Part shown: piece after piece, positions 45,936-56,894 of the stretch
Layout: the number at the start of each line of letters is the position of its first letter
How positions within the stretch are numbered: position 1 is the first letter of the stretch
Origin: Paludibacter sp.
GTDB lineage: Bacteria; Bacteroidota; Bacteroidia; Bacteroidales; Paludibacteraceae
DNA: 64,000 nt
Direction: 5' to 3'
Assembly: GCA_031292575.1 (NCBI GenBank)
Contig: JARLGX010000008.1
Span: forward strand, 152,028-216,027
Notes under the pieces: model-generated
Database searches by the model: none
What the model saw: only the letters and a program-made list of their open reading frames with translations
What the model was told of the DNA's origin: nothing
Position numbers and translations under genes: made by a program

Positions 45936-46805
45936 TTAAATGGAATAAAGATGATATATAATTAACATAACCATAAAAAGAAGCATGTAAACATTTATGC
46001 TGATAAATGATTTTTTAAAATTAATTTCAGCTATATCTCCGAAAGCAAGTTTAGTAAAAACACCTACAAACAATATATTCAGGACAAAAACAGCACTGAA
46101 AAACAACCACGAAAGATTCACCAGAAACAGTGGAATTATGAGGGATGAAAATGAAGTTGCAATTACCCAAGAGAAAATGATTATTCTCAAATTTACTTTA
46201 CTTACAGACTGATTAATAGTTGGAAATCCGGCGGCTTCATATTCCTTTCCGTATTTTAACATTAAGAGCCAGAAATGAGGTATTTGCCAAATGAACATAA
46301 AAAAGGCAATAAAAACTATTGTAGATTCAAAAAGATATCCCCCGGCAGCAGTCCATCCGATAAAAGCCGGAACAGCACCAACCAATGATCCGGGAACAAC
46401 AGCAAAAGCAGTAATTCTTTTCAGATTGGTATAGATCAGATTATACCATATTACATTGAATAAGCCCAACGATGCAGGGATTATTCCAAAATTTATGTAC
46501 AAAACAAATGAGCCTGTAATGATAAAGAGAATGGAAACAATTAGTGCTTGTAATGAAGACATTTTGCCCGAAGGTATTGGACGATCTTTCGTCCTTGGCA
46601 TCAATGCATCGTACTTTCTTTCCTGAAATTCATTTAATGCACTCGATCCTCCGGCAAGCATATAAACACCTATTACAAGAAAAAGTATACGAAAATCGAA
46701 ACTACCTGTATAAATGAGGTATCCTGTAATTGCAGTAAAAGTTACTGCAACAGAGACTTTATGTTTAACTAAAACCAGAAGCGTATTTAAAGAGATTGAT
46801 TTCAT
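45936..46805 (-). CDS. ctaB: Heme O synthase (protoheme IX farnesyltransferase)
   Basis: UbiA-family membrane prenyltransferase that adds farnesyl to heme B to make heme O, precursor of heme A for the oxidase. 289 residues, eight or nine membrane segments, and the prenyl-diphosphate motif NEFQERKYDALMPRTKDRPI. It overlaps coxB by four bases (ATGA) at the end of the oxidase operon. A ctaA gene (heme A synthase) is not in the window. Confidence 0.93.
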   Translation of the reverse strand: MKSISLNTLLVLVKHKVSVAVTFTAITGYLIYTGSFDFRILFLVIGVYMLAGGSSALNEFQERKYDALMPRTKDRPIPSGKMSSLQALIVSILFIITGSFVLYINFGIIPASLGLFNVIWYNLIYTNLKRITAFAVVPGSLVGAVPAFIGWTAAGGYLFESTIVFIAFFMFIWQIPHFWLLMLKYGKEYEAAGFPTINQSVSKVNLRIIIFSWVIATSFSSLIIPLFLVNLSWLFFSAVFVLNILFVGVFTKLAFGDIAEINFKKSFISINVYMLLFMVMLIIYHLYSI

Positions 46806-47716
46806 TTTAAAGTTTTGAGATACCCAGTTATTAACTGAACATCTTTATCGGTAATAGTTCCTTTATACGATTTCATAACTCCCTGTGGATAACCAGTCAC
46901 CACGTCTTTATCAGGATCATAAATGGAATTTTTAATATATTCATCATCTGCACTAATTTTATGAGTAGTTCCATTAGTCTTAACTTCTACGGTTGATCCA
47001 TAAAGGCTTTTTAAACTTGGACCAACCAATTTAGATCCGTCAATAGAATGGCAAGCAAGGCATCCATTTTTATCCAAAACACTATGACCTATATTAGTAT
47101 CGTTCCCCTTCACTTGCAAGGCTGCTATCCATTCATCATATTTATCCTGAGGTACTATCCTCACAACCGCTGACATATATGAATGATTTACACCACAATA
47201 AGCAGAACAAAGCAAATCAAAATCTCCCAATTGTCCGGGAATAAACCAACTGAAATTATTTTTACCCGGGACACAATCTTCCTTTATTCTAAAAGCTGGC
47301 ACAAAAAAACCATGTATCACATCTTTAGACACTAAATTCACTTTAACAGGCCTATTTATTGGCAAAACTAACGTGTCCGATTCTTTATTACCCGGATACT
47401 CAAACTTCCATTTCCACATTTGTCCAATTGCTGTAACTTGCATAGCATCCTTCGGAACTTGTCGCATTGGAAAAAAACCTTGCCAACCAACATAGAACAT
47501 ATAAAGTACTAACAATATTGGTAAAGTTGTCCAAGTTACCTCTAATAAAGTATTGTCTTTGATTTGTGTGGCTTTTGGATTCCTTTTTCTATTGTACTTA
47601 ACAACAAAATAAATCATAATCCCAGTGAATGAGACCAGAAAAAATAAGGAAAAGCCCCCAATTATAAGGAATGCTTTATCTACTCCGTGAACAAAATTTG
47701 ATGCGTTACTGAACAT
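46802..47716 (-). CDS. coxB: Cytochrome c oxidase subunit II with fused cytochrome c domain (caa3 type)
   Basis: CuA-bearing subunit that takes electrons from cytochrome c and passes them to subunit I. Two N-terminal membrane helices, then the CuA domain with His135, Cys170, Cys174, His178 and Met181, and a C-terminal heme domain with CLACH (219-223). The heme fusion defines the caa3 type. In the CuA loop CSAYCG the residue normally Glu is Ala; it usually ligates through its main chain, so a CuA site is still likely. 304 residues. Confidence 0.94.
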   Translation of the reverse strand: MFSNASNFVHGVDKAFLIIGGFSLFFLVSFTGIMIYFVVKYNRKRNPKATQIKDNTLLEVTWTTLPILLVLYMFYVGWQGFFPMRQVPKDAMQVTAIGQMWKWKFEYPGNKESDTLVLPINRPVKVNLVSKDVIHGFFVPAFRIKEDCVPGKNNFSWFIPGQLGDFDLLCSAYCGVNHSYMSAVVRIVPQDKYDEWIAALQVKGNDTNIGHSVLDKNGCLACHSIDGSKLVGPSLKSLYGSTVEVKTNGTTHKISADDEYIKNSIYDPDKDVVTGYPQGVMKSYKGTITDKDVQLITGYLKTLK

Positions 47717-47762: not shown

Positions 47763-48047
47763 TTAACGATATGCATAATCAATAAAAGTAATGAGGATTA
47801 TTACAGCATAAAGTACAAAAATCATTGTCACTAATAACCGTAGCAGCAAGCTTTCATACTTTAAATGCATAAAATATGTCAATATAAAAAACGCTTTTAC
47901 TCCGGCTATCAACAGGGCAACGGTTACACTAAAGGCACCTAAATGAAATGATGTTACAAAAATAGTTAGAAGTGTTAGAGACATAAGTATTAACACAACT
48001 CTTGCAAGCACTTTATAATCGGTAATATGTGAAACGTTGTTTGCCAT
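47763..48047 (-). CDS. coxD: Cytochrome c oxidase subunit IV
   Basis: Small accessory subunit of the prokaryotic subunit IV family: 94 residues, three membrane segments (VLILMSLTLLTIFVTSF, VTVALLIAGVKAFFILTYFM, LLVTMIFVLYAVIILITF). The motif KAFFILTYFMHLKYE is typical. Between subunits III and II, as in other caa3 operons. Confidence 0.88.
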   Translation of the reverse strand: MANNVSHITDYKVLARVVLILMSLTLLTIFVTSFHLGAFSVTVALLIAGVKAFFILTYFMHLKYESLLLRLLVTMIFVLYAVIILITFIDYAYR

Positions 48048-48111: not shown

Positions 48112-48729
48112 TTATGTAATTAAATATAATAACGGGAATAAGAAAATCCATATTAAATCTACAAGATGCCAATAAAGTGCACCATTTTCCAGATGAATAT
48201 ACTTTTGATAATTTAATGTTCCATTTTTAATTTTGAAGAAACACATTGTAAGTAGAACCATCCCAACAATTATATGAAGCGCATGTAATCCGGTCATAAA
48301 AAAATACAAACTGAAAAACATTAAATCACCTCTACCTAAATGAGGCATTAATGGAGATCCTGGATACAAACCATGTTCAAATTTCATGCTCCATTCTATA
48401 TATTTATTAAAAAGGAAAATCAATGCCATTAACAGAGTAACAGCAATCAGGCGCATGGCTAATTTTCTGTTATTTTTTTGAATCGCAGATAAAGCCATCG
48501 CAACGGTCATACTGCTAAATAATAATGCAATGGTATTAATTGCACCAATAGTTACACTCAATTCCAAACTTCCTTCGTGGAAATTTTGAGGATATTCTGC
48601 TCTGAAAACAGTATAAACCAGAAACAATCCACCAAATAGCAACAGCTCTGTAAATATAAAAAGCCACATACCTAATTTGGAAGCTTCGTCATCTCTATGC
48701 ACTTCAATATGTATTTCCTTTTCGCTCAT
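48112..48729 (-). CDS. coxC: Cytochrome c oxidase subunit III
   Basis: Membrane subunit without cofactor that stabilises oxygen delivery to subunit I. Five membrane segments in 205 residues, with the family pattern HIEVHRDDEASKLGMWLFIF, FFMTGLHALHIIVGM and WHLVDLIWIFLFP. It follows coxA in the operon. Confidence 0.93.
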   Translation of the reverse strand: MSEKEIHIEVHRDDEASKLGMWLFIFTELLLFGGLFLVYTVFRAEYPQNFHEGSLELSVTIGAINTIALLFSSMTVAMALSAIQKNNRKLAMRLIAVTLLMALIFLFNKYIEWSMKFEHGLYPGSPLMPHLGRGDLMFFSLYFFMTGLHALHIIVGMVLLTMCFFKIKNGTLNYQKYIHLENGALYWHLVDLIWIFLFPLLYLIT

Positions 48730-48823: not shown

Positions 48824-50431
48824 CTATTTGTAGTCATAGGGATTTGGATTTATTATCGGTGCTTCATCAAAATTTTCTAATGGTGGAGGCGATGGTATTT
48901 GCCATTCCAACGTAGTGCCATGCCATGGATTTGCAGGAGCAATTTCACCTTTTCGGGCACCTTGAACTAAATTAGAAATCATAAATATTAGTCCTCCAAT
49001 TAAAATGAATCCCCCAATTGTTGACACCACTTCTAAGGGCTGAAATTGTGGCAAATAATCAAAATATCTACGTGGCATACCTTCAATTCCTAAAATAAAT
49101 TGAGGAAAATACAACAAATTGAATCCCACAAAGTTAATACCCCAAGCAATAGTAGCACGTTTCATATTATACATTCTACCATACATTTTTGGTAACCAAT
49201 AATGAATGGCAGCAAAAAATGCAAAGCCCATTCCTCCAAATATGATATAATGGAAATGTGCTACCACAAAAGCTGTATCATGCACTTGTACATCTGTAGC
49301 AACCGATCCTAATAATAGCCCGGTAGTTCCACCAATTGTAAAAAGGAAAATGAATGAAAGTGCATAAAGAAATGGTGGTTTCAAATCAATAGAACCTTTA
49401 TACATTGTAGCCAGCCAATTAAACACTTTAATAGCACTTGGAACAGCCACAAGAAAAGTAAGAAATGAAAAGAACCATCTGGCCTGATCACTCATACCCG
49501 AGGTAAACATATGATGTCCCCAAACCAGAAACCCTACTCCGGCAATAGCCAAGCTGGATAACGCAATAGCTTTATATCCATATATTTTCTTTTGACAAAA
49601 AGTAGGTATAATCTCAGTAATCACACCCAATGCAGGAAGAATCATTATATAAACTGCCGGATGTGAATAGATCCAGAACAAATGTTGAAACAATACCGGA
49701 TCACCACCTAAACTTGGGTTAAAGAATCCAATTCCAAAAAGTCGTTCTGCAATAAGCATTAAAAGAGTAATCCCTACAATAGGCGTTGCCAAAAGTTGTG
49801 TCCAGGCAGTTGCATATATGGCCCACGAGAATAAAGGCATATTAAAGAATTTCATCCCCGGTGCTCGCATTTGATGTATGGTTACAATAAAATTCAATCC
49901 GGTAAGGATAGATGAAAACCCAAGTACAAAAGCTGCAAACGTAGCCATTATTACATTTGATCCCGTAGTAGTACTGTAAGGAGCGTAAAATGTCCAACCG
50001 GTATCTGGTGGTCCATTTTGCATAAATTGCGATGCTATTGCCAATCCGCAACCTGTTATATAAACCCACCACGAAAATCGGTTCAGTTTAGGAAAAGCCA
50101 CATCTTTTGCTCCAATTAAAATGGGCAAAAAGAAATTTCCAAAAACAACTGATAAACCCGGAATAACAACCATGAAAATCATAATAATTCCATGAACAGT
50201 AAACATCCCATTATAAGTTTGTGGCTTCATAATGGTTTCACCCGGAGCAATCAACTCAATACGCATAAGCAATCCCATCAGCGCTCCAATCGAGAACAGC
50301 ACAATGATTGCATACATATATATTAATCCGATTCTTTTATGATCTAACGTGAAAATCCAGGAAAAAATACCTTTATATTTTCCTTGATGTTCCAGATAGC
50401 TTACGTATTCATTTTTTTTATTTCCAGACAT
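48824..50431 (-). CDS. coxA: Cytochrome c oxidase subunit I, A2 type
   Basis: Catalytic heme-copper subunit that reduces oxygen to water and pumps protons. Twelve membrane segments; low-spin heme ligand His80 in FTVHGIIM; CuB His257 cross-linked to Tyr261 in IYSHPAVY; HHMF; and VAHFHY for the two hemes. The YSHPxVY sequence, with no Glu at the position of E278 of the A1 type, marks an A2-type oxidase as in Rhodothermus and Thermus caa3. 535 residues. Confidence 0.96.
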   Translation of the reverse strand: MSGNKKNEYVSYLEHQGKYKGIFSWIFTLDHKRIGLIYMYAIIVLFSIGALMGLLMRIELIAPGETIMKPQTYNGMFTVHGIIMIFMVVIPGLSVVFGNFFLPILIGAKDVAFPKLNRFSWWVYITGCGLAIASQFMQNGPPDTGWTFYAPYSTTTGSNVIMATFAAFVLGFSSILTGLNFIVTIHQMRAPGMKFFNMPLFSWAIYATAWTQLLATPIVGITLLMLIAERLFGIGFFNPSLGGDPVLFQHLFWIYSHPAVYIMILPALGVITEIIPTFCQKKIYGYKAIALSSLAIAGVGFLVWGHHMFTSGMSDQARWFFSFLTFLVAVPSAIKVFNWLATMYKGSIDLKPPFLYALSFIFLFTIGGTTGLLLGSVATDVQVHDTAFVVAHFHYIIFGGMGFAFFAAIHYWLPKMYGRMYNMKRATIAWGINFVGFNLLYFPQFILGIEGMPRRYFDYLPQFQPLEVVSTIGGFILIGGLIFMISNLVQGARKGEIAPANPWHGTTLEWQIPSPPPLENFDEAPIINPNPYDYK

Positions 50432-50511: not shown

Positions 50512-50913
50512 TTATTTAGCAACTGATCTTAAATATTCAAGCAGAGAGCGAGCCTGTGCTTCAGATAAATTCGGATCGGGCATTGGTACATTCTTGAATT
50601 TTACAACTAAGGCTTTAAAAGTTGGATCATTCTTTTGCATTTTTGTTGTATTATAAATAACATTCATAATATAATCAGGTTTTCTTTCCTTTGTTACATT
50701 TCTCAAAGTTGGTCCAACTTTTTTCTGATCCAGATCATGGCACATGGCACATTTTGAAGTGAATAAACCTTTACCAGCATTAACCATTTGCGGATTAATT
50801 GGTCCCATTTCTACTTTAGTTATCATTTCTTTTGGTTGCACTGCAACTGCATTCATACTAATTAGCAAAAACCCAATTAGTGATAATGCTCCAACTAAAA
50901 ATTTATTTGTCAT
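50512..50913 (-). CDS. Small monoheme cytochrome c
   Basis: Periplasmic electron carrier. Signal peptide, one heme site CAMCH (55-59) and the distal Met in VPMPDPNLSE. 133 residues. Position between the cytochrome-porin and coxA makes it a candidate electron donor to the oxidase. Confidence 0.88.
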   Translation of the reverse strand: MTNKFLVGALSLIGFLLISMNAVAVQPKEMITKVEMGPINPQMVNAGKGLFTSKCAMCHDLDQKKVGPTLRNVTKERKPDYIMNVIYNTTKMQKNDPTFKALVVKFKNVPMPDPNLSEAQARSLLEYLRSVAK

Positions 50914-50943: not shown

Positions 50944-52302
50944 TTAAAAACAAAGCCATGCTAATAGATATATTGTATTATTGTTACCTGCATTTCTACC
51001 CATACCATCGTAATTGGTACTACTTCCATCAAACTTTTGATAAGCAACATATTGTGCTGCAAACTTGGTATTATACCAAGGCAAATATTCAATTTGGAAT
51101 ATAAAACCACTGCTATTAGGTTTATTGTTACCATTTGGGAAATTGGCTATATCTGCACTCCCCGTATTATTAAAATAACCGATCGTTCCGCCAGTGCCAT
51201 TTTTAAAAAATAAATTTCCATCAACTTTAAAAGATTGAAAGTTATAATTGGTCTCAGCCGACAAATCCCGAACTTCATTTTCGTTAACAAAAGAGGAATG
51301 TAACGACAAGGATCCAAATGGCAATGAGCGCTCATATTGTAAATCAACGCCTATATCAACAAACTTATCCAAAGCTCCAGAAATTCCTGTGAGATATTGA
51401 GTAGAAGCAATACCCGAAGTACCTAATTCTAAATAATTTAAACCCCACTGATGCTGCAAAGCTAAACGCCAATATGGGATAAATCCCTTTACCACATTAG
51501 TATTGGTTGTATCCGGTGGATTATGTGAACCTATTTGCGCTGAGCGATAGGTAGTAAATTCAGCAAAAACCAAATCATTGAAAAGTCCATATGCACCTAC
51601 ACCTATTACTTGTCCACCCAAACTTTCAATCAAAGCTGATTTTGCAGGAGATGGAGCTGTAGCAGCACTTGCATAAGGAAATCTCCAGGCGGGTGATGTA
51701 TTCCAGAGGTCTTGCGAAGTCGGGTTATTATTTAAAGTCAAACCATAAAGCAAGCTGTTTGAGCCAAAATTTGTGGTATTTGCATAACGAATATCTGCAT
51801 TATCCATGCCAAAACTTCCATCAGCATAAGTCATTTGAATAAATGACCCGATATGTGGCGTAATCTGTCCGGCAAAGAACATACTTAATTGCTGTGGAAA
51901 TTGACCTGAGTTATTTTGCTGCCCAACCACATCTTTTGCAATACTTGTAAAAGAAGATTGTACCATAACCGACAATGGCAGGTTGTTTAATAGATTTAGC
52001 CTTGTTTTGGGTTTCAGCGTATCTCCACTCTGGTCGTTAATAGTGCTTGCTGTAGTTAAAGTATAACCATTCGCTTTGAACATACGTCCGAAGGAATTCA
52101 GTTCAGGAAATGAAGTGTGGCAGGCTGTACAAGATAACTGGGTTTGCCGCGCATAACTCGGTAAAGCTTTAACAGCTTCGAATGGAGCAATAAAAATAAT
52201 AAAAATAAAACTCAATCTTAAAACATTGATTATAGTTTGTCTGACTTTGAAAGAAGTCAATAAACCGGTACGATTTATTAACCAATAGTTTTTGTTTTTC
52301 AT
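50944..52302 (-). CDS. Outer-membrane cytochrome-porin, Cyc2-like
   Basis: 452 residues: a long signal region, then the mature start ALPSYARQTQLSCTACH with one heme site C58-T-A-C61-H62, continuing FPELNSFGRMFKANGYT, then an all-beta, Gly/Asn/Ser-rich region with strand-like alternation up to a C-terminal Phe. The N-terminal motif (PxxARQTxxxCxxCHxxxPxLxxFGRxFKxxGY) is that of Cyc2 fused cytochrome-porins, in which a single heme sits inside a 16-strand barrel; proven members oxidise iron outside the cell. Whether this member does so is unknown. It lies in the terminal-oxidase operon between SCO and a small cytochrome c. Confidence 0.75.
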   Translation of the reverse strand: MKNKNYWLINRTGLLTSFKVRQTIINVLRLSFIFIIFIAPFEAVKALPSYARQTQLSCTACHTSFPELNSFGRMFKANGYTLTTASTINDQSGDTLKPKTRLNLLNNLPLSVMVQSSFTSIAKDVVGQQNNSGQFPQQLSMFFAGQITPHIGSFIQMTYADGSFGMDNADIRYANTTNFGSNSLLYGLTLNNNPTSQDLWNTSPAWRFPYASAATAPSPAKSALIESLGGQVIGVGAYGLFNDLVFAEFTTYRSAQIGSHNPPDTTNTNVVKGFIPYWRLALQHQWGLNYLELGTSGIASTQYLTGISGALDKFVDIGVDLQYERSLPFGSLSLHSSFVNENEVRDLSAETNYNFQSFKVDGNLFFKNGTGGTIGYFNNTGSADIANFPNGNNKPNSSGFIFQIEYLPWYNTKFAAQYVAYQKFDGSSTNYDGMGRNAGNNNTIYLLAWLCF

Positions 52303-52321: not shown

Positions 52322-53098
52322 TTAATTCTTATTGTTGTTTGTTTTTTTTGGCTTAATAAGATATATTAGAACGAAGACAATAATAAAAAATACGATCAAA
52401 ATACCCGCAATCTTCAAAACATCCAGCGCATACCGCTGTCCTTGAGGGTCGTAGCTATAACAAAGCAACAATACTTTCTGAATGGTTGGTCGTGGTTGTC
52501 CTTTATTGGCTTCAATCAGTGCCATTTTAAAATCAATTGGCTGAAAGGTTATACCATATAGATACCGTGTTATCATGCCTGTGGGGCTAACTGCCAGAAT
52601 TGCCGACGGATGAACAAAATCCAATCCAACTGCTTTGGTAATAAAACCAGCTGCATGTGTTATTTTATAAATTGTGGTGCTATCTGTAGTTAAAAAAATC
52701 CATCCATCACTATTTCCTTTGGCATAACGCGCGGTAAAGCGGGTCTTTTTTTCTTTGGCTTTTTCGGGTGTATCCCTATAATTAAAACTTATAGTAATCA
52801 CCTGATAATCTTTCCCGAGAACAAGATCAGTCTTTTTCATCACATCACCTAAACCTTCCAGAAGAGGAGAGCAAAGTCCCGGACAATCGAAATACACAAA
52901 AGATAAAATTGTAGGTTTGTTGATGATTTGTTTTAAACTGACAGTATCAAACTTATCGTTTATAAATTTCAAATCCAATGGAATAGTGCTGCCAAGATGT
53001 TCAACAATTCCTACTTGTGGCGATTGATCTACTTGTGCAAAAGAGCATTCGATTACGCTAACAAAAAATATAAAAATAAGAATGAGCTTTTTATTCAT
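52322..53098 (-). CDS. SCO family copper chaperone
   Basis: Thioredoxin-fold copper-delivery protein for the CuA site of subunit II. Signal peptide, the copper/thiol motif CPGLC in YFDCPGLCSPLLEG, the later conserved His in VHPSA, and a C-terminal membrane anchor (ILIVFFIIVFVLIYLIKP). 258 residues. Directly between the cytochrome-porin and DoxX genes. Confidence 0.92.
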   Translation of the reverse strand: MNKKLILIFIFFVSVIECSFAQVDQSPQVGIVEHLGSTIPLDLKFINDKFDTVSLKQIINKPTILSFVYFDCPGLCSPLLEGLGDVMKKTDLVLGKDYQVITISFNYRDTPEKAKEKKTRFTARYAKGNSDGWIFLTTDSTTIYKITHAAGFITKAVGLDFVHPSAILAVSPTGMITRYLYGITFQPIDFKMALIEANKGQPRPTIQKVLLLCYSYDPQGQRYALDVLKIAGILIVFFIIVFVLIYLIKPKKTNNNKN

Positions 53099-53103
53099 GA
53101 TTA

Positions 53104-53487
53104 CTATTCTTTAGTTGTTTTAGTTTCGAAAAGGTCTGAATTAATGGCAATCATTATAGCACCACCCATTAAACTCGTATCTTTAAGAAGTTCAATTAAT
53201 GCTATTTGCCAGTCTGAAGTAAATAAGCCGGGGATATGAATAGTTACAATAAAAAGAAATAATAATCCGGCTAATCCAAAGCTAACAATTTTTATATTCT
53301 TATTTAACATTATACTAACACTCGCAATTATCAACAATAATCCCGTTAACAAAATAGTGTAAGCCCCGCCTGGTATAAATGAAGACATCATTCCAATAAA
53401 AAAATCTTTCATCAATAAATGATTTAAGCCCATTATACCAAAAGGTAAAGCAAAAAGAATTCGTCCAACAATTACTAGTTTTTTCAT
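53104..53487 (-). CDS. DoxX-like membrane protein
   Basis: 127 residues with four membrane segments and the opening GRILFALPFGIMGLNHLLM, as in the DoxX family of respiratory accessory proteins. It overlaps the preceding cytochrome gene by four bases (ATGA) and is followed by SCO after 5 bp, so it is an integral part of the operon. Its biochemical role is unknown. Confidence 0.8.
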   Translation of the reverse strand: MKKLVIVGRILFALPFGIMGLNHLLMKDFFIGMMSSFIPGGAYTILLTGLLLIIASVSIMLNKNIKIVSFGLAGLLFLFIVTIHIPGLFTSDWQIALIELLKDTSLMGGAIMIAINSDLFETKTTKE

Positions 53488-54401
53488 GATTTTAAATTTT
53501 TAATGTCACTTGATTTATTTAATTTAAATAGATTATAAACGATATAACCAAATACCGAGAGAACTAAAAAAACACAGAATAAATAAGTAAGAATCAACCA
53601 AACAGGAGCTTTCGCCAGAACATTCCAAATGGCTCTCTTTTCAGTCAGACTGGGTTTGTTGGTAGGAACACCAACCTTAAATACTTTCTGATATTGAACC
53701 TCTCCATAACTATCATCATTTACTGATACAATTAAATCAACATTTCCATTTTTGTCGCCGGGTAAATCTTTTGGGAAACTAAATACAACTAATCCATTGG
53801 CATCGGTACGATTGGTTTTATCTATTTGGAGTTTTCCAAAATATCTCTTTGCAAAAAGCTCTACTTCATCATTTTTTAGCGACACAACCCCGGTAGTTTC
53901 ATTTGCTTTCACAAGCACTTTTATCTGATTGGTCTTAGCATCGAACTCCATAGTTATTTTTACCAGTTTGCTCTTTCCTGAATCAAACTTAGATAATACC
54001 TGCACATAATCTTTATTGAAACTTCTTATGTAAGAAATGACTTTCCAACGGTCTTGGTCTGTCAGTACATCTTTGAATGATGGCATTATCACTCTACCTG
54101 TACTAATAATGTAGAAAATATCTCCATCGGTACGATGCTGAGTTACTGCACCGGCCAAATCGGGGGGTATAGGGCTTAATGACTTCAGACTATTTCCTTT
54201 GCCCGGATTACCATGACAGGACACACAATTCTTTGTAAAAATGGCTTCTCCTTCTTTTGCTGTTGAAGCATTGAAAGGAAAGCTGCTGTTCTTTGCCGAC
54301 TGATCTGCCGGAATATTCCAGTTCTGCGCCGCCACGTTTATAGCTAAAAGTGAACCGAGTATAATTGTTGTGAGTTTTAAACCAATATTCTTCTTGTACA
54401 T
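53484..54401 (-). CDS. Membrane-anchored monoheme cytochrome c
   Basis: Periplasmic-facing cytochrome with signal peptide, heme site CVSCH (59-63) and distal Met in RVIMPSF, an Ig-like middle domain (about 130-250) and a C-terminal anchor (WLILTYLFCVFLVLSVFGYI). 305 residues. Its place right after the Fe-S and NrfD genes makes it the likely electron exit of that membrane complex towards the oxidase. Confidence 0.85.
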   Translation of the reverse strand: MYKKNIGLKLTTIILGSLLAINVAAQNWNIPADQSAKNSSFPFNASTAKEGEAIFTKNCVSCHGNPGKGNSLKSLSPIPPDLAGAVTQHRTDGDIFYIISTGRVIMPSFKDVLTDQDRWKVISYIRSFNKDYVQVLSKFDSGKSKLVKITMEFDAKTNQIKVLVKANETTGVVSLKNDEVELFAKRYFGKLQIDKTNRTDANGLVVFSFPKDLPGDKNGNVDLIVSVNDDSYGEVQYQKVFKVGVPTNKPSLTEKRAIWNVLAKAPVWLILTYLFCVFLVLSVFGYIVYNLFKLNKSSDIKNLKS

Positions 54402-54424
54402 AAATTGTTTGATTAATAGTTGCT

Positions 54425-54479
54425 ACTTACCACCGGTTACCTTTTACCGACTACTTGCTTGTACTACTTATTACCCACT
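54425..54479. repeat. AC-starting heptamer tract, overlapping the nrfD-like stop
   Basis: Units read ACTTACC, ACCGGTT, ACCTTTT, ACCGACT, ACTTGCT, a six-base TGTACT, ACTTATT, ACCCACT. The tract occupies the gap to the cytochrome gene and enters the last codons of the nrfD-like gene (54464-54479). Confidence 0.5.
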
Positions 54480-55786
54480 TTTTCGGGTTCTTCAAGTTCT
54501 TCCAATGTTTCATGAATGGGAATAATTGGTATAACTTTCGACAAAATAGTAATTATAATTATTGCCAATAAAATGGGCGCAATTGTTATCAGTATTTCTA
54601 TTAATGTAGGCGTATAAAATTTAAAATTCAGCGGAACATTCTGAATGGGTAAATATGGGTGCTCCTGTGTAGGAACAACTATGATGTACCGTTTAAACCA
54701 CGCTCCAACCAAAACAAATATTGAAACGACCATAACGGGCAAAGGCTTTCGCATTTGTTTAAACAAAAGTATGATGATTGGAAGTACAAGTCCCAAGAGT
54801 TGAGTTGACCAAAACAATAGAGCATGTGCACCGGTAAATAATTCGTTAAGATGGATAGCATCAAACTTTTTCATTTTATAACCCGGAACCATGAATTCAT
54901 TCAAATTAAAATACAGATAAACCAGCGATACCAATACCAACAATTTAGCCATTTTATCAAAATGCATATCGGTGATATAATCCTTCAGTTTATAATTGTA
55001 GCGATAAAAATACATGGCAATAATTACCGCAGCACATCCGGCCACAAAAGCCCCGGAAACAAAATAAGGACCGAAAATGGTGGAGTCCCAGCCTGCTCTG
55101 GAAGTATTAGCAAAAAGCCATGAAGTAACAGTATGAATACCAAATGCTACCGGAATAATGAGGATAGCTAAAACACGAATCGAGTTTTTAATAATTTTTT
55201 GTTGTTCTGGAGTATTATTCCAGTTCAGAGATAAAATTTTATAAATTGTACGTTGAATTTTTGGAGCTTTTTCTAATTTGTCATAACAAATTTTGAAATC
55301 AGGAATAAGTGGTAAATAAAGCAATAATAAACTTATGATAATATAAATGGTAACTACGGTAATATCCCACACAATGGGCGATTGAACCCGGCCATGAATA
55401 AACACATAAAGAAGTCTATCGGGCCTACCCATATCCGAAATAATTACTAATCCCGCCACAGATGCAAAAGCCAAAGCAATAATCTCAGCAATTCGAGCCA
55501 AAGGAGAAGCCCACTTAATTCCGATTAAACCAAGCACAGCCGTCATCAACATCCCAATTAAACTTACTGCCACAAAAAATACAAAATTGGAAATGTATAA
55601 GCCCCATGAAACATAATCACGAATGCCGGCTACACCTAACCCATCTCTTAACTGAATGGTGTAAGCATATATACACACCAAAAATGAAATTCCTAATACG
55701 CCCATCCATATAATAAAGGCTTTATTTAGACGAATATGTCTAAGCAAGTCGGATGTAATTGTGTCTGATTTTAATTGATCTAACAT
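54464..55786 (-). CDS. NrfD/polysulfide reductase-like membrane quinol subunit
   Basis: Integral membrane protein of the NrfD/PsrC family; these bind a quinol near the periplasmic side and pass electrons to a periplasmic Fe-S partner, or the reverse. 440 residues with about ten membrane segments (for example AFIIWMGVLGISFLVCIYAY, SNFVFFVAVSLIGMLMTAVL, ALLFWSTQLLGLVLPIII). The Fe-S partner is encoded 145 bp upstream and the cytochrome 62 bp downstream. The length and partners resemble ActC of alternative complex III. The end of the frame overlaps a heptamer tract. Confidence 0.88.
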   Translation of the reverse strand: MLDQLKSDTITSDLLRHIRLNKAFIIWMGVLGISFLVCIYAYTIQLRDGLGVAGIRDYVSWGLYISNFVFFVAVSLIGMLMTAVLGLIGIKWASPLARIAEIIALAFASVAGLVIISDMGRPDRLLYVFIHGRVQSPIVWDITVVTIYIIISLLLLYLPLIPDFKICYDKLEKAPKIQRTIYKILSLNWNNTPEQQKIIKNSIRVLAILIIPVAFGIHTVTSWLFANTSRAGWDSTIFGPYFVSGAFVAGCAAVIIAMYFYRYNYKLKDYITDMHFDKMAKLLVLVSLVYLYFNLNEFMVPGYKMKKFDAIHLNELFTGAHALLFWSTQLLGLVLPIIILLFKQMRKPLPVMVVSIFVLVGAWFKRYIIVVPTQEHPYLPIQNVPLNFKFYTPTLIEILITIAPILLAIIIITILSKVIPIIPIHETLEELEEPEKVGNK

Positions 55787-55931
55787 AAGCTATTAATTCA
55801 TTATTTAATATTACCCATTAACTCTAAAAGAAAGATAATAACACTCTTGTTTTAGTATTGGAAATATGTAACGTTATGTTACATCCCATATTATCAATAA
55901 TTTATGTTAAGTATCTTGTTGTTTTTCAGAG

Positions 55932-56894
55932 TCATCCTTTTAAATGTTCTTCAGCTTCCTCTCTGTCTTTGTCCTGAAATGGATACGATTTTCCTTTTGG
56001 AGGCAAATAATAAACTCTTGGGTTTGTTCCCAATTCTGCCATCAGTCTGTAACCGCCATTGTCTTCAAGCAGTTTTTTAAACCTCACAGTTTCTTTGGTT
56101 GTACCATTGGTCACAGCATCTTCATTCTCATCACCAAAGTAAAAAACTCCGTTAGGACAAGCACCAACACAGTATGGCAATTTACCTTCACGCACTCGGT
56201 CGGCACTGAATAAGCATTTGGTTATTGTTCCCTTACGTTGTGGTACATTCAATTCCACATTGTAAGTTAAGTCTTTATCTTCCTGTTCATGTAATGGTTT
56301 TGACCAGTTGAAATAACGGGCACTATACGGGCATGCAGCAATACAAAAACGGCACCCGATACATCGTTCGTTATCTATGAGCACAATACCATCAGGGCGT
56401 TTAAATGTAGCATCAACCGGACAAACAGCCACGCAGGGCGGATTATCACAATGTTGACATTGTTTTGGCATATAATAAGGAGGAGTGTCTAATGACTCCT
56501 GCATTTTCAGTGTAGTAATATGCGATTGTTCGGGGCGGAGGTGATGTGCAGACTGGCAAGACGACATACATTTGCGGGCATTTCTACAACGTGACAAATC
56601 AATAACCATTACCCAACGTTTTCCTACTATGCCTTCTCTACCTTCTTTTTGCAGGTAGGTAAGAACTTCCTGTTTTGACTTTACAACTTTACCAGCATCT
56701 TTACGATCTATTTCTATGAGCTCATTTTCAGCAGTAAGTACTTTTATTCTATCGATCTGTCTTTTTCGCTTGTCATAGTTAATACCGGCAAAAATTGCAG
56801 AACCACCTATTACTGCACCAATACCTACATATCCAAGTTCTTGTAAAAATTCTCTTCTTGTTTTATTTTTGGGCTTATCTTCTTTTTCACTCAT
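55932..56894 (-). CDS. Tat-exported four-cluster Fe-S protein
   Basis: Electron-transfer subunit of the DmsB/HybA/NrfC type. The twin-arginine motif KTRREFL with hydrophobic VGIGAVIGGSAIF marks Tat export, so the clusters face the periplasm. Cys groups are CRNARKCMSSC, CQHCDNPPCVAVCP, CIGCRFCIAACP and CLFSADRVREGKLPYCVGACP, enough for four [4Fe-4S] clusters. 320 residues. No molybdopterin subunit is nearby. First gene of the respiratory cluster; a weak -7 candidate (TTTCTTTG, minus strand, 56937-56944) precedes it. Confidence 0.9.
   Translation of the reverse strand: MSEKEDKPKNKTRREFLQELGYVGIGAVIGGSAIFAGINYDKRKRQIDRIKVLTAENELIEIDRKDAGKVVKSKQEVLTYLQKEGREGIVGKRWVMVIDLSRCRNARKCMSSCQSAHHLRPEQSHITTLKMQESLDTPPYYMPKQCQHCDNPPCVAVCPVDATFKRPDGIVLIDNERCIGCRFCIAACPYSARYFNWSKPLHEQEDKDLTYNVELNVPQRKGTITKCLFSADRVREGKLPYCVGACPNGVFYFGDENEDAVTNGTTKETVRFKKLLEDNGGYRLMAELGTNPRVYYLPPKGKSYPFQDKDREEAEEHLKG

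Follow-up and report, generated by a model that had tools for sequence, protein, structure and literature searches.

The window analysed here, a stretch of 64,000 nucleotides from a Paludibacter sp. genome (Bacteroidota; contig JARLGX010000008.1), raises the question of whether a member of the Bacteroidales encodes a fused cytochrome-porin of the Cyc2 type and, if so, how its gene came to stand in a terminal-oxidase operon and what it would do there. Cyc2 genes are widespread, and their meaning for iron oxidation outside the known iron oxidisers is an open matter (PMC8406198). Cyc2 homologues of Bacteroidota are already in print, some of them in Cluster II, and iron oxidation had been presumed for the phylum earlier (PMC9769843). 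Another study names Bacteroidota as one of the taxa that carry iron-cycling genes and counts Ignavibacteriales among the carriers of genes for iron oxidation (PMC8478452); passages of a further study list its one Bacteroidota MAG without Fe(II) oxidation (PMC8357290). Searches of open-access literature yielded no paper on cyc2 in Paludibacter, on cyc2 and iron oxidation in Bacteroidales, or on cyc2 in Prolixibacteraceae. What is new is the history of the locus: a quinol-fed caa3 operon was already in place when a cyc2-cytochrome c pair entered it.

The original prediction had placed a Cyc2-like gene at positions 50944-52302. These coordinates are correct, with the coding frame on the minus strand; the plus-strand reading contains 29 stops. 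The two motifs on which that prediction drew, ALPSYARQTQLSCTACH and FGRMFKANGYT, both occur in the translated protein of 452 residues, which ends, as had been said, in Phe. The protein begins with a hydrophobic leader (a stretch recognised by eye ahead of the cytochrome segment), continues through ALPSYARQT-QLS-CTACH-TSF-PEL-NSFGRMFKANGY into a strand-rich part, and runs on to the terminal Phe; its single CXXCH occupies residues 58-62 of a cytochrome segment spanning approximately residues 46-80. Published descriptions of Cyc2 specify AXPXFAR[Q/K][T/Y] before the CXXCH, PXL 4 residues later, a 16-strand porin, and, for the screen, a minimum of 365 residues, which the window protein exceeds (PMC8406198). 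The window protein has one CXXCH with PXL at the expected spacing (CTACH-TSF-PEL), and ALPSYARQT agrees with every fixed position of the motif except one, where Tyr stands for Phe. Taken literally, the screen motif PXFAR[Q/K][T/Y] of the same paper misses the protein at this one residue. Four further genus members have orthologues with 79-82% identity, and the orthologue L004 has the Phe version (PSFARQT).

A pattern scan of genome contigs gave at least 594 matches, among which at least 585 were relatives; the best 80 of these were kept, from records of Bacteroidota, Ignavibacteriota, Gemmatimonadota, Acidobacteriota, Pseudomonadota, and others. Viral contigs gave 84 stretches that matched the pattern, none of which encoded a relative. 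Alignment A4 combines the window protein with 60 of the 80 loci, leaving out L093 (stop codons), L104, L114, and 17 others. Among these 61 proteins, sampled from the best 80 of at least 585 relatives, Phe occupies position 50 in 44 and Tyr in the other 17, and R52, Q53, T54, C58, C61, H62, P66, and L68 are invariant; Met113, present in 55 of the 61, is considered a candidate sixth heme ligand. A profile built from the five genus genomes with the gene and searched in 394 genomes of the phylum matched 101, seven of them (the window genome counted) at E <1e-138 with the barrel included; among the matches listed, those in other phylum genomes were short N-terminal stretches.

Pfam and NCBIfam searches with the window protein returned no model matches at E ≤1, and PDB sequence searches returned none for the protein (E ≤10) or for the 61-row profile (E ≤1). 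By hhalign, the window-family profile aligned with Chlorobiaceae Cyc2 at E 2.8e-24 over 377 columns, a span that at first suggested homology over the full length, and the cytochrome segment alone at E 7.7e-29, so the resemblance to Cyc2 exceeds chance. Barrel-only profiles of the two groups matched at E 0.002 (probability 13.7), against E 0.13 for a reversed decoy; on this ground full-length homology to Chlorobiaceae Cyc2 is not claimed, and homology across clusters is proposed for the cytochrome segment only, because the barrel-only match is weak. Judged from sequence and model, kinship across Cyc2 groups thus rests on the cytochrome segment and a common predicted fold, and within the window protein's own branch the aligned sequences indicate full-length homology. 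AlphaFold, supplied with 61 sequences, predicted 16 long strands in the stretch from residue 110 to 451 (mean pLDDT 85.4, pTM 0.79); ahead of the barrel, two short helices flank the CXXCH, and residues 38-47 fall below a pLDDT of 50. At E ≤0.001, Foldseek returned 202 matches in the PDB, and general porins (of the Omp-Pst2, OmpF, and OmpC/Omp32 kind) make up most of the 50 listed, which also include AlgE and OprO; the TM-scores are modest (TMt ≤0.62 among those 50). The barrel that had been read from the letters alone reappears as 16 modelled strands with porin-like structural matches. Together with the motif, the length, the single heme site, and the tree position described below, this model supports the predicted identity: the window protein is likely a Cyc2-family cytochrome-porin, presumably located in the outer membrane and loaded with heme.

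To which branch of the family it belongs was addressed with trees. Reference groups consisted of Chlorobiaceae proteins and two copy types of small-genome Pseudomonadota, with putative cluster labels; the FMO protein was found in all 6 Chlorobiaceae genomes tested, of the 11 behind alignment A5. The small-genome Pseudomonadota block probably corresponds to Zetaproteobacteria, because it combines a strong Chlorobiaceae-like copy with a frequent second, RKY-type copy, a pattern described for Cyc2 Clusters 1 and 3 (PMC7029218). Several Chlorobiaceae genomes (family f35) have 2-4 Cyc2 profile matches each, and Cyc2 paralogues seem common in this group. One Pseudomonadota genome encodes a protein near Chlorobiaceae Cyc2 (L161, G832:C8:496882-498090; E 3.3e-88, the next best genome 1.1e-35), which reflects either transfer or a binning error.

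The trees contain no named A. ferrooxidans Cyc2, and rusticyanin served as the anchor for Cluster 2. In a search of 369 Gammaproteobacteria, G1061 alone scored above the cut-off and G1115 came next (137 vs 146.7 bits); in four rusticyanin-picked genomes, the window-family profile found two matches in G1115 and none in G1061, G1206, and G1007. The first G1115 match lies in a run, named by eye, of cyc2, cupredoxin-like, coxB, coxA, coxC, ctaA, ctaB, and rusticyanin-like genes, in which no cyc1 was seen and which resembles the Acidihalobacter order (PMC10654088). The Cyc2 of this rus-type run matches the window-family profile at E 1.3e-117 over 435 positions. The first tree comprised 105 of 168 extracted proteins; the second had 81 rows (79 of the 168, with L229 and L230) and left out near-duplicates, 16 genome-contig rows, L161, and the long-branched L014 and L207. 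In the second tree, the window family and L230, the Cyc2 of a rus-type operon, share a 37-row clade (100/100), the Chlorobiaceae proteins and Zetaproteobacteria-like first copies form another (100/99), and the RKY types lie outside both, the RKY_bact rows not forming one group. Beside the window clade branches L054 (97/88), whose record name has the sample name Dive100 of PMC9769843 and which may correspond to the published sequence. The order of the deep groups is unsettled, with SH-aLRT 93 at deep forks of the first tree and a root split of 88/64 in the second. Cluster 3 had first been expected; it was given up when the tree grouped the rus-type Cyc2 with the window family and placed the RKY-type second copies apart. 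The window protein accordingly falls inside the Cyc2 family, and it most likely belongs to the published Cluster 2, because it shares a clade with the rus-type Cyc2 and because of L054 and the Cluster II assignment of Bacteroidota Cyc2 (PMC9769843). With Cluster 2 (PMC8406198, PMC7029218) it has in common the motif, the single CXXCH, the PXL spacing, the length, the 16-strand model, and the branch of the rus type; it differs in the Tyr for Phe and in its Bacteroidales host.

The surroundings of the gene (Table 1) are those originally claimed: SCO upstream, a small cytochrome c downstream, and then the caa3 genes. Gaps are short, with 19 bases from SCO to the Cyc2-like gene, 30 from there to the cytochrome, and 80 from the cytochrome to CoxA. 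The oxidase qualifies as caa3 in that one CoxB joins the CuA domain to a C-terminal cytochrome c; PF00115 gives a single match in the window genome, making this the sole heme-copper oxidase found, and one bd oxidase was found as well. No rusticyanin or cupredoxin gene was seen in the operon, by eye or in family searches of nine and eight proteins.

Table 1. Genes of the oxidase operon in the window, in 5' to 3' order of the operon.
Feature	Positions	Strand	Basis
DsrO-like 4Fe-4S protein	55932..56894	(-)	PF13247 E 6.9e-25; 187.3 bits with the DsrO model (cut-off 200)
NrfD/DsrP-like membrane subunit, presumed quinol site	54464..55786	(-)	PF03916 E 3.3e-35; DsrP model 122.2 bits, cut-off 350
Cytochrome c, 305 aa, C-terminal hydrophobic segment	53484..54401	(-)	PF13442 E 5.4e-14
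DoxX/MauE-like membrane protein (weak)	53104..53487	(-)	E 0.085 and 0.097, below cut-offs
SCO-type protein, left border of insertion	52322..53098	(-)	PF02630 E 3.1e-5
Cyc2-family fused cytochrome-porin (likely), 452 aa	50944..52302	(-)	Motif, model, hhalign, Foldseek, tree, alignment
Monoheme cytochrome c, secreted-looking, 133 aa, pair partner	50512..50913	(-)	PF00034 E 5.5e-12
CoxA of caa3, right border of insertion	48824..50431	(-)	TIGR02891 E 1.8e-200, 666.9 bits vs cut-off 670.75 (just under)
CoxC	48112-48729	(-)	Named by eye; recurs in genus operons
CoxD	47763-48047	(-)	Named by eye; recurs in genus operons
CoxB with C-terminal cytochrome c domain	46802-47716	(-)	TIGR02866; PF00116 + PF00034 in one protein
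CtaB-like heme O synthase	45936..46805	(-)	By eye; recurs in genus operons

The upstream genes deserve mention in their own right. At 53484-56894, and likewise in L134-L148, a DsrO-like FeS protein, a DsrP-like NrfD protein, and a membrane-anchored cytochrome c make up a short, presumed quinol:cytochrome c module beside caa3. It looks like a minimal alternative complex III, and shares with alternative complex III and DsrMKJOP-type modules the combination of FeS, NrfD, and cytochrome c next to a caa3 oxidase; it differs in having only the DsrO-like and DsrP-like subunits, both of which miss the DsrO and DsrP family cut-offs.

How the pair came to lie in this operon can be read from the genus. 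A Cyc2 gene was found in 5 of 48 genus genomes (some incomplete) and a CoxA of the window operon type in 25. Fourteen oxidase operons were examined from the 21 genomes with CoxA and without Cyc2, and SCO adjoins CoxA in every one; within the length of each stretch, all 14 have FeS, NrfD, cytochrome c, a DoxX-like gene (recognised in 13), SCO, and CoxA onward. In 13 of them the SCO frame ends 8-31 bases before the first matched CoxA codon; the one not counted, from G438 (L138, G438:C31), has a CoxA frame whose first part starts right after SCO and which is broken by an in-frame TAA, a sign of a pseudogene or an assembly error. The carriers, by comparison, have the Cyc2 and cytochrome c genes between SCO and CoxA. 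Four of them have CoxA on the same contig as the Cyc2 gene, which makes the oxidase context of the original prediction real, and in the fifth, G015, Cyc2 follows SCO and the contig stops inside the cytochrome gene. As SCO is next to CoxA in all 14 operons without Cyc2, the cyc2-cytochrome c pair was inserted into an existing quinol-fed caa3 operon. In the CoxA tree, where G438 is represented by its second CoxA part (306 aa), the four carriers lie inside a seven-genome clade (100/100) with three non-carriers, and in the second Cyc2 tree the five genus Cyc2 proteins form one clade (100/100). No Cyc2 gene was found in the other 43 of the 48 genomes, including those three. This distribution fits a single gain with either subsequent losses or exchange. 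Three carriers have record names (Umea2, AM-2014, and Chersky) that suggest an origin in northern ponds or lakes, which are typically humic and iron-rich.

The two genes also occur together outside the genus. Among the best 80 of at least 585 relatives, 73 loci had at least 700 bases downstream of the Cyc2 gene, and windows at least 4 kb away in the same loci served as controls. In 46 of the 73 loci, vs 5 of 949 control windows, an ORF for a c-type cytochrome starts in the same orientation within 600 bases after Cyc2; by this rule, the other 27 loci lack such an ORF immediately after Cyc2. Heme motifs in the 46 ORFs number one in 31 cases, two in 14, and five in one. In the ten loci nearest to the genus (L044-L053, within the same best 80), the pair alone was recognised and no oxidase genes, and in the five inspected gene by gene it stands alone. 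Across the 77 non-genus loci of the best 80, three (L078, L079, and L092) show CoxA and six show both FeS and NrfD genes in the stretches examined; most showed neither in their stretch, which was often short. The pair is plausibly portable, as the reading proposed below assumes. The six loci with FeS and NrfD genes (L059, L060, L065, L067, L076, and L110) have them downstream of the Cyc2-family gene, in Bacteroidota and one Acidobacteria record, with a window-like cytochrome c in the first five and not in L110; a Cyc2 wired directly to the quinone pool is possible there. Near the free-standing pair, four of the five Bacteroidia loci inspected (L046, L048, L051, and L053) have a gene that, by eye, we take to be pirin-like. 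Two Cyc2-family genes share a locus in L074, L096, and L113, and L081 has a CoxB-like gene beside Cyc2.

Plasmids carry such genes as well. Nine plasmid records encode a relative with 27-35% identity, their hosts including Methylocystis, Caballeronia, and Paraburkholderia; in five of six regions examined, a gene annotated as a c-type cytochrome comes directly after the relative, and the sixth has such a gene upstream; a HiPIP gene is also present in one region. Two plasmids, of Acidithiobacillus ferrooxidans and Acidiphilium cryptum (L037 and NC_009469.1), each carry a window-family gene, and the two genes do not differ in coverage of the query or identity to it; this suggests that the gene travels on plasmids.

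Cytochromes of the c4 type are diheme. The rus operon, known from Acidithiobacillus, Acidiferrobacter, and Acidihalobacter, has a cytochrome c4, Cyc1, whereas the window has a monoheme cytochrome with one CXXCH (PMC10654088). Both operons run from cyc2 through cytochrome c to cox genes and a heme-synthesis gene (PMC10654088), yet no rusticyanin or cupredoxin gene was seen with the window genes, and the cox order is A-C-D-B in the window and B-A-C-D in the rus operon (PMC10654088). The window operon further differs in including SCO and the FeS/NrfD module and in having arisen by insertion of a pair into a resident operon. Bacteroidota MAGs from Southwest Indian Ridge vents share with the window genome the phylum and, most likely, the published cluster of their Cyc2; they differ in their vent habitat, and passages of that paper describe no oxidase operon or insertion (PMC9769843).

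The best explanation for these findings, which we hold at a probability of roughly 60%, is that a Cluster 2-type Cyc2 and its cytochrome c partner were inserted as a pair into a menaquinol-caa3 operon and added a second input, for a donor outside the cell. The oxidase operon of the relatives exists without the pair and has an apparently complete quinol-fed chain; Cyc2 is therefore an added input, and the 'direct route' from the cell surface to oxygen proposed originally omits the resident chain. From the gene families we infer that this chain would lead from menaquinol through the FeS/NrfD proteins and the 305-aa cytochrome c to caa3. In the added branch, a small dissolved donor would enter the Cyc2 pore from outside and reduce the single heme, which would sit as a plug at the periplasmic mouth of the barrel; the 133-aa cytochrome c would take the electron on to CoxB, at its cytochrome c/CuA domain, and caa3 would hand it to O2 with proton pumping and, presumably, a gain of energy. 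Inward flow is favoured because of the oxidase context and the tested members of the family, and Fe(II), free or ligand-bound, is the first candidate donor because iron oxidation has been demonstrated biochemically for the Cyc2 family (PMC8406198). This reading draws support from the motif and its spacing, the 16-strand model with its porin matches, the clade shared with the rus-type Cyc2, the adjacent SCO and CoxA genes of the 14 operons, the recurrence of the pair on contigs and plasmids, the CoxA or FeS and NrfD genes at some loci outside the genus, and caa3 as the sole heme-copper oxidase found in the genome. Weighing against it are the barrel-only comparison and the modest TM-scores, the ten nearest non-genus loci and most of the 77 in their stretches, the 43 genus genomes in which no Cyc2 gene was found, the 27 loci without the cytochrome ORF, the hosts of the relatives, and G1061, the one genome with rusticyanin above the cut-off, where the window-family profile gave no match.

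A donor other than iron (another small reductant, for instance, or a reduced shuttle of humic or quinone type), or a protective role in scavenging O2 or Fe(II), would leave protein and direction of flow unchanged, and we consider this possible, if clearly less probable than the reading above. It would suit the presence of relatives on Methylocystis, Caballeronia, and Paraburkholderia plasmids and in many Bacteroidota, Gemmatimonadota, and Acidobacteriota records among the best 80 of at least 585. We know of no protein of the window branch that has been tested in a neutrophile, and the hosts of the relatives in plasmid and contig records are not known to us as iron oxidisers. The family is also granted possible additional functions, although in the literature consulted the only biochemically demonstrated function is iron oxidation (PMC8406198), and a Cyc2 from a rusticyanin-type operon belongs to the window branch, which argues for iron.

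The flow could also be reversed, with electrons from menaquinol leaving by way of the small cytochrome c and then Cyc2 for an acceptor outside the cell when O2 is scarce. Bacteroidales are mostly anaerobic, which speaks for such an outlet, as does the putative quinol-oxidising module of the operon. We nevertheless regard outward flow as improbable, for the oxidase alongside the pair would drain the same cytochrome pool, and the potential of 208 mV reported for a tested Cyc2 is consistent with accepting electrons from Fe(II) (PMC8406198). Still less credible is a heme segment that merely plugs an ordinary porin, as a structural or sensing element through which no electrons flow: the failure of curated family models to match, and a barrel whose sequence shows scarcely any kinship to the barrels of other Cyc2 groups, would agree with it, yet the eight residues identical in all 61 aligned proteins and the cytochrome ORF that comes next in 46 of 73 loci (of the best 80 of at least 585) both argue against it. 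Misassembly or contamination of the window genome, for which no supporting sign was found, can be set aside, as five separately assembled genomes have Cyc2 after SCO (79-82% identity to the window protein) and the listed values for the window genome are 99.59% completeness and 0.03% contamination.

The inserted pair, feeding caa3 from an outside donor, would have consequences beyond this operon. Quinol-caa3 operons of close relatives that differ by the presence of two genes amount to a natural paired experiment, and if the pair confers donor-dependent O2 uptake, the trait is one that can be gained by one small insertion, and Cyc2-positive Bacteroidota would become likely players in iron cycling. 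It is tempting to speculate, with somewhat less assurance than attaches to the best explanation above, that one Bacteroidales lineage within a mostly fermenting genus became, in a single step and by way of a two-gene cassette, a facultative O2-respiring oxidiser of iron or another outside donor, re-creating the logic of the acidophile rus system independently at near-neutral pH. The locus suggests that, through a two-gene unit, a mostly fermenting lineage may have gained an O2-dependent use of dissolved iron or another donor from outside the cell.
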